From Gloeocapsopsis crepidinum LEGE 06123 (GTDB taxonomy: Bacteria; Cyanobacteriota; Cyanobacteriia; Cyanobacteriales; Chroococcidiopsidaceae): a stretch of DNA of 57,618 bases. The DNA lies in assembly GCF_015207655.1 (NCBI RefSeq), contig NZ_JADEWN010000035.1, forward strand, positions 1 to 57,618. Reading direction: 5' to 3'. How positions within the stretch are numbered: the stretch's first letter is position 1; every line of letters starts with the position of its first letter. The translations under genes were made by a program, and so were the position numbers. The notes under the pieces are model-generated. The model did no database searches. It was not told where the DNA came from and saw only the letters and a program-made list of their open reading frames with translations. Below are positions 35,512-39,415 of this stretch, one piece after another.

Positions 35512-38076
35512 ATGACATCTCCAGACACCGCGATATGGCTACAAGAACGAACGGCTTTAGGAATTCTTTCTGCTGAAGTATTGGAAGCGATCGCGCAAGT
35601 TCTTGAAGAAGTAACTTTACCAGAAAATCATCCTCTCGTCACAGAAGACACGCCTCCAGAAGCACTCTATATTCTTAAACAAGGCAAACTCGAAAGCTAC
35701 CCCACTCATCAAAGCAATTTAGCAGCAGCGTGTAGTTTTCTTCCTGGATCAGTTGTTCATCTCCAGGAACTCTTGTTAGACCAACCTGCACAACGTACTA
35801 TTAAAACTCTTAGTGAAAGTCACTTTTGGGTTATTCCGGCAGCGCAATTCAAACAAATTGTGGCGCGACATCCAGAAATTACACAAGTGTTTTCGCGTCA
35901 ACTTATCCAAGAAGTCGCACAACTTACCTCAGCACTTTCTTACGAACAAGAACGTTCCCAAGCGCTGCGTCCTTATTTAGTTACCAAAGCACAACGCGGT
36001 ATTGTAGGGACAAGTCGCTATGCAGTGCGTCTACGTGCAGTAATTCGCGAAGCTAGCATAGAACGCAAGTCAGTGTTAATTTTTGGCGAACCAGGATTAG
36101 AGAAAGATAACATTGCGGCTTTGATTCACTTCGGTTCTCCGCAGCGTAAACAACCAATTATCAAACTTAACTGTAGTATTCTTCAATCGAGTGGTGCAGA
36201 CTTATTCGGTCGCGCAAGTGGTAAAGTCGGATTACTCGAATGGCTGGGAGATGGCACACTTGTTCTCAATAATATTCAAGATCTCCCTGTGGAGTTAGTT
36301 CCTTCGTTAGTACAACTACTCAAAACAGGTACATACACTCCAGTAAGTCGTTCAGGAGAACCTACTCCTGCAACTCGGACTTCTCATGCTCGGATTTTGA
36401 TGATTTCTGAAAGGACTCAGTCTATAATAGAGCGCTGCGCTGGTCAAATTATCAAAGTTCCCCCACTACGAGTACGTAAAACTGATATTAAAGCTCAAGC
36501 TGAGTATTACATTAGTCTCTACAGTCGCAGTCAAGGCATTTCCAAACCAAGAATTACTCCAGAGGCGCTACGCCGCTTACAATCCTATGATTTTCCTGGT
36601 AATCTGCAAGAACTACAAAGCTTAGTAGAAAGAGCCATTATTCAATCAGCGGGAGGATCAGAACTTACTGAAGAAATTTTTTGGTCAGCCCAAACGAAGA
36701 AAAAACAATTCCGTGTCAATCTTTTAAATATGTATTCTGGATTGCGACGATTTCTGCGTAGTCCTTGGTATCCAGACAGGATTAATTACGGCTTTACTCT
36801 ATGGTTTTTTGCTGTCGTTGTCATTGTCCTCTTCGTTGGTCCGCAACATCGTAGTGAGAACTTTGCCTTAAATATGTTTTGGGCATGGTGGTGGCCTTTA
36901 ATATTACTTGGATTTCCGTTTCTCGGACGAATTTGGTGTGCCTTTTGTCCCTTCATGATTTACGGAGAAATAACACAAAAGCTCTCGCTATGGCTATTTC
37001 CGCGACAATTAAAATCATGGCCGCGACATCAAGCAGAAAAATGGGGTGGATGGTTTTTATTTGGATTATTTACCTTAATTTTCTTGTGGGAAGAACTTTG
37101 GAATTTAGAAGATACAGCTTATCTCTCTAGTTGCTTGCTATTGTTAATTACTGCTGGGGCGATGATTTTCTCGGCAATTTTTGAGCGTCGATTTTGGTGT
37201 CGCTACCTCTGTCCCATTGGAGGAATGAATGGGCTATTTGCTAAATTATCAATGATTGAATTGCGGGCGCAACAGGGCACTTGTTCGGCGGAGTGTACAA
37301 CATATCAGTGTTACAAAGGTGGTCCGCAAAAGGGTGAAGGAATGGAAACGAATGGGTGTCCCTTGTACTCGCACCCTGCACAACTTGAAGATAACCGCGA
37401 TTGTGTACTGTGCATGACGTGTTTGAAAGCTTGTCCGCACCGTTCGGTTGAAGTTAACTTGCGTCCTCCTGGAATTGAATTATGGACAACACACGTACCC
37501 CGTTCTTATGAAGTAGCGTTGTTGTTTTTGCTCTTTGGTGGAGTATTTTTGCATCGTTTACCAGAGTTGCAAGCTACTCTAGGATGGCATCTAGATTTGA
37601 CGCAGTTTTTACCACATTTAGGAGTATCGTTAACTGCTTTAGTTATTCCAGCGATCGCTGCACTATCGGTATACGGTTTGATGCAGCTATTGTATTTGTT
37701 CAGCAAGTTTATCAAACAAACCAAATCTAATTTCGTTCCTAAACCTAAACCATTTACAGAGATAGCTTATGGTTATTTGCCTCTTGTGTTAGGTGGAAAT
37801 CTGGCACACTACCTACGTTTAGGTTTGGGAGAGGCTGGCAGGATTGTTCCGGTAACGTTAGCAACTTTTGGCTATAGCACTCAAGGAATGCCAATTGTCA
37901 TAGCGCATCCTGCTGTCACTGCATTTTTACAAGGAGTCACGTTAGTTTTTTCTGTACTGTTAACAATAGTGTTGACACACAAAATTACCCGTCAGCCGTT
38001 ACGTCTGCTTTTACCGCAACATTTAGGTGCGATCGCCTTAACCACAATGATTTGGATACTTGTTGTCGGTCGGTAA
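35512..38076 (+). CDS. Fusion: cNMP-binding-like domain, degenerate NtrC-type AAA+ domain, membrane polyferredoxin
   Basis: An 854-residue, three-part protein. Residues 1 to about 135 look like a cyclic-nucleotide-binding beta-roll (PPEALYILKQGKLESYPTHQ, then FLPGSVVHLQELLL). Residues about 155-400 follow the sigma-54-activator AAA+ fold (IGTSRYAVRLRAV; KLNCSILQSSGADLFG; DFPGNLQELQSLVERAI). Walker A is GEPGLEKD instead of GESGTGKE, Walker B is LVLNNI instead of LFLDEI, and the GAFTGA loop is missing, so ATP hydrolysis and sigma-54 contact are unlikely. From about 425 there are several transmembrane helices with NapH/NosR/CcoG-like motifs WCAFCP (about 474) and RYLCPIGGMNG. A soluble cysteine cluster follows (CSAECTTYQC; CVLCMTCLKACPH at about 631), then more helices. 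It is probably a membrane redox protein with a sensory front end. Confidence 0.82.
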   Translation: MTSPDTAIWLQERTALGILSAEVLEAIAQVLEEVTLPENHPLVTEDTPPEALYILKQGKLESYPTHQSNLAAACSFLPGSVVHLQELLLDQPAQRTIKTLSESHFWVIPAAQFKQIVARHPEITQVFSRQLIQEVAQLTSALSYEQERSQALRPYLVTKAQRGIVGTSRYAVRLRAVIREASIERKSVLIFGEPGLEKDNIAALIHFGSPQRKQPIIKLNCSILQSSGADLFGRASGKVGLLEWLGDGTLVLNNIQDLPVELVPSLVQLLKTGTYTPVSRSGEPTPATRTSHARILMISERTQSIIERCAGQIIKVPPLRVRKTDIKAQAEYYISLYSRSQGISKPRITPEALRRLQSYDFPGNLQELQSLVERAIIQSAGGSELTEEIFWSAQTKKKQFRVNLLNMYSGLRRFLRSPWYPDRINYGFTLWFFAVVVIVLFVGPQHRSENFALNMFWAWWWPLILLGFPFLGRIWCAFCPFMIYGEITQKLSLWLFPRQLKSWPRHQAEKWGGWFLFGLFTLIFLWEELWNLEDTAYLSSCLLLLITAGAMIFSAIFERRFWCRYLCPIGGMNGLFAKLSMIELRAQQGTCSAECTTYQCYKGGPQKGEGMETNGCPLYSHPAQLEDNRDCVLCMTCLKACPHRSVEVNLRPPGIELWTTHVPRSYEVALLFLLFGGVFLHRLPELQATLGWHLDLTQFLPHLGVSLTALVIPAIAALSVYGLMQLLYLFSKFIKQTKSNFVPKPKPFTEIAYGYLPLVLGGNLAHYLRLGLGEAGRIVPVTLATFGYSTQGMPIVIAHPAVTAFLQGVTLVFSVLLTIVLTHKITRQPLRLLLPQHLGAIALTTMIWILVVGR

Positions 38077-38580: not shown

Positions 38581-39415
38581 ATGTCTCAATATGCTCACCC
38601 TGAAGTTTTAGTCGATACGCAATGGCTGATGAATCATCTCAACGATCCGACGGTGCGTGTAGTTAAAGTTAATACGAGTTCAGAGCCATACAAAAATGCT
38701 CACATTCCTGGTACAGTTTTCTGGAATATTTTTACAGATTTGTTGCTACCCAACCTTCGGATGAATCTAGATCCAACCGCTATCGAAAAATTGCTGGCGC
38801 GATCGGGAATTTCTAATGATACAACTGTAATTGCCTACGGTAGTTATCCTGGCACAGAAGCTTGGATCTTTTGGCTTTTAAAACTATTTGGACACGATCG
38901 CGTGTATGTTCTCAACGGCGGCTATCAGAAATGGGTGGCGGAAGGTTGCCCACTCGCAACTGATTTATCTAAACGTCACGCCGACTCAGTACTCTGCCAA
39001 ATCTCCTGATGTTCATTTGCGAGTTCTACTGCCAGAAGTTCAAGCTTCTCTAAACTGGACAGATTGCGTGTTACTTGATGTCCGTACTTCTCCAGAGTAT
39101 CGCGGCGAAATTTTCATGATGCAGCCGCCAGAAGGTACAGAACGCGGCGGTCATATTCCAGGTGCTGTCCATCTTGAGCATACTCTCATGCTCAATGAAG
39201 ATGGAACGTTTAAATCAGTCGAAGAGTTACACGCACTTTATACTAGCCAAGGCATCACACCTGATAAAGAAGTATTTCCTTATTGTGCGATTGGTGGACG
39301 GTCTGCCTATACTTGGTTCGTTCTGAAATACTTATTGGGCTATCCTCACGTCCGAAATTATGACGGGTCGTGGAACGAATGAAGCCGTCTTCCTAATGTG
39401 CCAATCGAGCGATAA
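38581..39415 (+). pseudogene. Two-domain rhodanese (sulfurtransferase) broken by a frameshift and a stop
   Basis: The first part (38581 to about 38970) encodes the N-terminal rhodanese domain (HPEVLVDTQWLMNHLNDPTV; YGSYPGTEAWIFWLLKLFGH; VLNGGYQKWVAEGCPLA). At TCTAAACGTCACG (about 38969-38981) one extra A shifts the frame; the sequence continues in the +1 frame as NVTPTQYSAKSPDVHLRVLL and the C-terminal domain with the active-site loop CAIGGRS. This frame ends at TGA 39380, where WNE is followed by an in-frame SRLPNVPIER and taa 39413-39415, so a Trp codon has probably become TGA. Two independent lesions argue for a real pseudogene rather than a sequencing error. Confidence 0.8.

Follow-up and report, generated by a model that had tools for sequence, protein, structure and literature searches.

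A contig of the cyanobacterium Gloeocapsopsis crepidinum LEGE 06123 (NZ_JADEWN010000035.1), analyzed over a stretch of 57,618 nucleotides that we call the window, encodes a protein in which a CAP-like domain and an AAA+ module of the type found in bacterial enhancer-binding proteins (bEBPs) are followed by a membrane iron-sulfur (Fe-S) part (Table 1). The protein has four above-cut-off Pfam matches, far beyond chance, and these bear out the three-part architecture (a cyclic-nucleotide-binding-like fold, an NtrC-like AAA+ core, and an Fe-S membrane part) that an initial annotation had read from the DNA alone. The same annotation had raised the possibility that the frame joins two separate genes. 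This was rejected, given the intact 854-amino-acid frame and 65 sequences, the window's included, that read through one frame. The architecture is real and widespread among cyanobacteria.

Table 1. Features of the 854-amino-acid protein and its gene in the window
Feature	Residues	Position in window	Strand	Basis
Whole gene, 854 amino acids, single intact frame		35512..38076	+	Open reading frame
CAP-like (cNMP_binding) domain	34-120	35611..35871	+	PF00027, 45.7 bits (cut-off, 27.5)
bEBP-type AAA+ module, alpha/beta part	164-281	36001..36354	+	Sigma54_activat, PF00158, 50 bits (cut-off, 20.2)
Walker A, GEPGLEKD, including K198	192-199	36085..36108	+	Alignment
Walker B stretch, GTLVLNNI, acid-free (LVLNNI, 250-255)	248-255	36253..36276	+	Alignment
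AAA+ lid	320-391	36469..36684	+	AAA_lid_14, PF25601, 50.3 bits (cut-off, 27)
Membrane Fe-S part	424-854	36781..38073	+	7 or 8 hydropathy peaks
Membrane Cys pair 1, C476-x-x-C479 followed by P	476-479	36937..36948	+	Cys in 65/65
Membrane Cys pair 2, C563-x3-C567 followed by P	563-567	37198..37212	+	Cys in 65/65
C591, C595, C600, C616, C631, C634, C637, and C641 (two putative [4Fe-4S] clusters)	591-641	37282..37434	+	Cys in 65/65

Within the membrane part, Fer4_5 exceeds its Pfam cut-off (31 bits versus 22; best stretch, residues 543 to 579), and Fer4 models give weak, sub-cut-off matches to the eight-cysteine region. No helix-turn-helix or other DNA-binding domain was found among the protein's Pfam matches at an E value of ≤1. 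Farther along the window, frames 38581-39009 and 38888-39382 overlap and, by eye, resemble a single rhodanese/sulfurtransferase gene of two parts in which the frame changes; the first of them, the one covered by the Pfam scan, matches Rhodanese.

Distribution and phylogeny

With the window protein as the query, matches at an E value of ≤1e-20 were present in 73 of 291 genomes of the phylum, and a search with a clade II member (defined below) gave matches at ≤1e-100 in 247 of 388 genomes of the class, representing 121 of 159 genera. The best 80 of at least 563 relatives in a genome search were all cyanobacterial by title. Among 72,556 plasmid records, the two in which 80% or more of the protein is spanned at one place are both cyanobacterial.

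We aligned 65 single-frame sequences, including that of the window, from the 81 places of the phylum search. Left unaligned were the damaged copies L047, L055, and L057, as well as L056, whose protein is of a different kind, and 10 more places, among them L034, some of which sit at contig ends or hold a stop. The tree of the 65 sequences contains clade II (7 rows) and clade P (8 rows, one small-genome family), each with a support of 100; clade I is our working label for the other 50 rows, to which the window protein belongs. Clade II is also set apart in the class genomes, where 43 places are at least 56% identical to the clade II query and the next stands at 43%. The damaged copies differ in kind: L047 (7971-9951) has a frame break, L055 (3039-5761) is split over two frames, and L057 (7995-8753) has an internal deletion with most of the middle gone up to about residue 643. 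L057 is the single copy without the AAA+ part, and little of its Fe-S part is left.

The AAA+ module and sigma-54

Chains of bEBPs in the PDB match residues ~161 to 379 (phmmer; best E value, 3.8e-20), and in Foldseek the AAA+ part resembles AAA+ domains of bEBPs, with target TM scores of up to 0.77 among the 50 matches listed. In the AlphaFold model of the whole protein (41 close sequences), the predicted local distance difference test score (pLDDT) of the CAP-like and AAA+ blocks is mostly 70 to 90. Like NtrC, NifA, NorR, and PspF (PF00158), the protein has the AAA+ alpha/beta fold with a lid, and its structural matches to NtrC1 chains show 27 to 28% identity. Unlike the bEBPs, it has no GAFTGA loop and no Walker B acids, its sensor I Asn and Arg finger are not conserved, no DNA-binding domain is matched, and its own genome is without an above-cut-off sigma-54 match.

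The missing loop and the acid-free Walker B had both been pointed out in the initial annotation, and both were confirmed for the window protein. A GAFTGA-like sigma-54 contact loop occurs in none of the 65 aligned sequences, so that no homolog uniting intact Walker motifs with GAFTGA was found among them. The Glu position of Walker B is Glu in 0/65 and Asp in 1/65, and the window protein has N253/N254. The Asp position is occupied by Asn in clade I (48/50 rows) and by Asp in most of clade II (6/7) and clade P (5/8). The putative sensor I Asn and Arg finger, whose positions come from a LuxO alignment and are less sure, show no conserved Asn or Arg over the 65 rows.

The further claim that Walker A is altered turned out to be only mildly true. 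The second Gly, whose place E197 takes in the window protein, is lost from 42 of the 50 clade I rows (8 keep it) and from all 8 of clade P, but the Lys (K198) is found in 65/65 sequences and Walker A is canonical in clade II, with G-K-T in 7/7. All 49 window-clade sequences from named genomes keep the Walker A Lys together with Asn-Asn in Walker B. Because Walker A is largely kept, the AAA+ module may still bind nucleotide.

That this AAA+ core occurs in a genome free of sigma-54 was confirmed to the extent that the window's own genome has no match above cut-off: its only candidate is a 58-amino-acid frame below the PF04552 cut-off, and PF04963 is not matched. Across the phylum, PF04552 is matched at an E value of ≤0.001 in 9 of 291 genomes, and above its cut-off in 2, while PF04963, the core-binding domain, was found in 0 of 4 genomes tested, the window's own included. 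The stronger of the two above-cut-off matches (62 bits) is a 202-amino-acid frame with the sigma-54 DNA-binding domain (L192, 6915-7523) in genome G123, which is without a PF04963 match. The unaligned place L056 (6918-8876) encodes 653 amino acids that include a tandem pair of bEBP AAA+ domains, both well preserved, whose loops read GAYTGA and GSFTNA. Its genome (G106), of the same phylum and 98% complete, matches neither of the two sigma-54 domain models tested. In the accessible part of an earlier study, sigma-54 and its activators are described as absent from all 29 cyanobacteria examined (PMC3162934).

Many bEBP models of NCBIfam, as well as NapH, hit the window protein far below their cut-offs among the matches listed; NorR scores 94.9 bits against a cut-off of 476, and the NtrX equivalog scores 92.9 bits against 600. 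Judged by its sequence, the protein is best read as something other than a sigma-54 activator, and the name NtrX or “nitrogen assimilation regulatory protein” is unsupported.

That name is carried by Synechocystis slr1529 (ntrX), a possible ortholog. The clade II gene NIES50_69290 bears the same product name. In the accessible parts of three studies, slr1529 is listed at 0.29 with 3 µM copper (PMC4182526), has an antisense RNA as its partner under iron deprivation, where its table values are negative (PMC3516471), and belongs to the six genes whose knockouts changed metabolites most at 72 h (PMC5318462). A literature search that had most subscription journals outside its reach returned no description of this fusion, and the accessible parts of three papers on cyanobacteria and sulfide make no mention of 4Fe-4S, NtrC, or cyclic nucleotides (PMC5061849, PMC5776472, PMC12466478).

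The CAP-like domain

The cyclic-nucleotide-binding-like domain of the initial annotation is present in the window protein as a fold, with PF00027 above its cut-off, but its phosphate-binding signature is lost and the domain itself is missing from 12 of the 65 aligned sequences. The presumed phosphate-binding Glu position, which like the Arg position was assigned by hand with reference to CAP, holds Leu in 44/47 domain-bearing clade I rows and Tyr in 6/6 clade II rows; the presumed Arg position is variable. Because this signature is not kept, a role as a cyclic-nucleotide sensor is disfavored, and binding of cAMP or cGMP is unlikely.

The membrane Fe-S part

All 12 cluster and membrane cysteines are invariant (65/65), and the protein has the CxxCP and CxxxCP membrane pairs together with the eight ferredoxin cysteines of NapH/NosR-like proteins in the broad sense. 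The eight cysteines would be expected to bind two [4Fe-4S] clusters. As in NapH/MauN, the membrane pairs and the ferredoxin region are spanned by model TIGR02163, at 51.2 bits versus a subfamily cut-off of 213.05; unlike NapH/MauN, the window protein has extra C-terminal helices and a long cytosolic front. It resembles NosR/NirI in that a front part is joined to a membrane polyferredoxin, although the NosR/NirI model gives the membrane part only 19.9 bits versus a cut-off of 1000. NosR has a periplasmic FMN (flavin mononucleotide) domain; in its place the window protein has the CAP-like domain plus AAA+. The copper reductase CcoG/RdxA is a membrane [4Fe-4S] reductase, and the likeness to it lies in that idea. 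The initial annotation had called this part NapH/NosR/CcoG-like; a likeness to NapH and NosR is supported, and the four NCBIfam models that the membrane part matches at an E value of ≤0.01 do not include one for CcoG.

More distantly, relatives of just the membrane part occur in organisms including Deinococcus and haloarchaea, where the neighboring genes vary. The Natronorubrum relative sits between a metal transporter and P-type ATPases, and a short, weak match in Chlorohelix sits among sulfur-transfer genes.

Constraint on the three parts

The mean identity of clade I sequences to the window protein is 83.3% for the Fe-S membrane part, 68.1% for the lid, 62.5% for the AAA+ core, and 58.2% for the C-terminal helices (49 rows); it is 48.1% for the CAP-like part (46 rows). 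The ratio of nonsynonymous to synonymous substitution rates (dN/dS) was calculated for eight pairs, none including the window: seven lie in clade I, with L011 common to two of them, and the eighth is from clade II. It ranges from 0.004 to 0.058 for the Fe-S part and from 0.092 to 0.241 for the CAP-like part; for AAA+ with its lid it is 0.012 to 0.135, indicating purifying selection in 8/8 completed pairs. One of the ratios is rough because dS is >1 in that pair. The AAA+ part is thus less constrained than the Fe-S part but is maintained by selection, and since selection keeps it, it is a module and not junk. Since it is present in all 65 aligned sequences, 12 of which are without the CAP-like domain, the core unit appears to consist of AAA+ plus Fe-S.

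Gene neighborhoods

The cysteine synthase gene cysK lies near the clade II gene in 29 of 41 loci, in all cases on the same strand and in 22 directly downstream, versus 2 of 42 loci of the window's clade (Fisher P of 1.2e-10, an optimistic value because the loci are related). The 41 loci include one plasmid, and 6 of the 43 clade II places lie outside the set. This association of clade II, a paralogous sister of the window's clade, with cysK is the new lead of the analysis. Further flanking genes in the 41 loci are nudix (10 loci), psbA, petC, rhodanese, and nitronate monooxygenase-like (8 each), sulfide quinone reductase (SQR)-like (7), DUF2892, RND, and thioredoxin reductase-like (6 each), and ArsR, ADO-like, and heme oxygenase-like (5 each), to which looser clustering adds a few. 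The 42 loci of the window's clade contain one psbA, one ArsR, and none of the others. For cysK, psbA, and petC, NCBIfam matches above cut-off confirm the identity, and the remaining names were given by eye; the SQR-like protein matches the sulfide quinone reductase model below its cut-off.

Similar sets of genes lie on plasmids, where an island of Pseudanabaena galeata contains katG, DsrE, cysK, rhodanese, petC, and psbA, and one of Aulosira laxa contains cysteine synthase, petC, psbA, and a regulator. To judge by their gene names, the clade II islands may be sulfide/low-oxygen islands. In Synechococcus PCC 7002, polysulfide raises cysK2 and rhod, according to a paper whose accessible part does not mention the clade II family (PMC12466478). 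Upstream of two clade II members (L052 and L053) lie genes that appear by eye to encode heterodisulfide reductase B/C subunits and a flavoprotein, and downstream of another lies a NifH-family gene (L054, 12352-13242; PF00142, 451 bits).

In clade P, 4 of 9 loci have a gene judged by eye to be Fur-like no more than about 1.5 kb downstream, and 2 of 9 are flanked by an ABC-3 transporter gene. The small-genome members near a Fur-like or ABC-3 transporter gene are L042, L043, L044, and L047, together with L045 and L046.

Discussion

The most economical reading of the window protein is a redox protein with a regulatory front end. We propose that it is a membrane Fe-S redox protein gated by a pseudo-ATPase AAA+ module and not a sigma-54 activator, a proposal that in our judgment is about as apt to prove right as wrong. 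The cytosolic front end would act as the regulator: the AAA+ module, mostly with the CAP-like fold before it, would bind a nucleotide, a metabolite, or a partner, and would alter access to, or the activity of, the NapH/NosR-type Fe-S part. If the predicted topology is right, electrons would pass, in one direction or the other, between a putative cytosolic donor and a putative acceptor in the membrane or on its far side, by way of the two presumed [4Fe-4S] clusters and the membrane cysteine quartet. An Fe-S part that is the most constrained of all, joined to an AAA+ module without the residues for hydrolysis and sigma-54 remodeling but with the P-loop Lys, is what would be expected of a nucleotide- or ligand-sensing gate. 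The initial annotation had cast the AAA+ core as a structural or sensory module in a signal-gated electron transfer protein. The degenerate core, the fusion, and the selection acting on it agree with this idea, but electron transfer and gating are still suggested by motifs.

It is tempting to extend this reading to a cyanobacteria-wide class of signal-gated redox proteins, in which AAA+ is a non-hydrolyzing nucleotide or metabolite gate and one branch, accompanied by cysteine synthase, serves photosynthesis under sulfide or low oxygen; we offer this extension tentatively and think it somewhat more apt to fail than to hold. The genes around clade II would suggest a sulfide/low-oxygen role for that clade, and for the window's clade I we infer a more general redox role.

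Several results weigh against the proposed gate. The Fe-S part is modeled poorly, with a pLDDT of <50 over residues 553 to 657 of the whole-protein AlphaFold model and a mean of 57.5 when the membrane part is modeled alone, and a profile of the membrane part finds no solid solved relative (best E value, 0.017). The family is not universal, as 141 of the 388 class genomes are without a match at an E value of ≤1e-100. The window's clade is without conserved neighbors: each of 11 neighboring proteins in the window is matched in at most 3 of 121 clade I loci, and the upstream MarR, pirin, and WrbA genes are matched in none of these loci, some of which are short or come from the same genome twice. 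The sulfide/low-oxygen role therefore cannot be carried over to this clade. Within clade II itself, cysK was not seen in 12 of 41 loci, some of them on short contigs. Finally, if slr1529 is orthologous, its knockout does not count among the four mutants whose growth in BG11 was altered, as far as the accessible part of the study goes (PMC5318462).

The protein could instead be a membrane-tethered redox sensor that steers gene expression by way of a partner. On this view, the quinone or ferredoxin pool would be sensed by the Fe-S/membrane part, with the AAA+/CAP part binding and releasing a DNA-binding protein or an RNA polymerase with an ordinary sigma factor. The cytosolic folds are indeed those of transcription factors, bEBP relatives that work with sigma-70, DhaR and TyrR, are described in the accessible part of the study cited above (PMC3162934), and an ArsR-type gene is found near clade II in 5/41 loci, near the window's clade in 1/42, and near clade P in 2/9. 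If slr1529 is an ortholog, the metabolite change of its knockout would fit as well. However, Pfam matched no helix-turn-helix or other DNA-binding domain, and the invariant ferredoxin cysteines with CxxCP and CxxxCP favor electron transfer over sensing alone, so we regard such a sensor as rather unlikely. Less probable again is an enzyme of metal or cluster handling, a CcoG-like reductase or assembly factor with AAA+ as its handling domain. The Fur-like (4/9) and ABC-3 transporter (2/9) genes of clade P and the metal transport genes around the Natronorubrum relative speak for it, as do the copper and iron values of slr1529 if that gene is an ortholog, but the other distant relatives have different neighbors, no link to metal genes is prominent for either the window's clade or clade II, and ATP-driven work is unlikely because the hydrolysis residues are gone.

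We give least credence, and very little of it, to a decaying relic, in which AAA+ would be a folded spacer left in an old fusion. Loss of catalytic residues, the damaged copies L057, L055, and L047, and the 141 class genomes without a match would fit such decay; purifying selection on AAA+, the invariance of K198, and the presence of the family in 121 of 159 genera argue the other way.

The protein thus belongs to a widespread family that is named a nitrogen regulator in at least one record and whose sequence does not support the role of a sigma-54 activator. If it does gate membrane electron flow, photosynthetic or respiratory redox metabolism would have in this family an unrecognized control point, and a sigma-54 activator module would, unusually, have been recruited outside transcription. 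The link between clade II and cysK offers a testable entry to the function of the family and to the ways in which cyanobacteria cope with sulfide and low oxygen.

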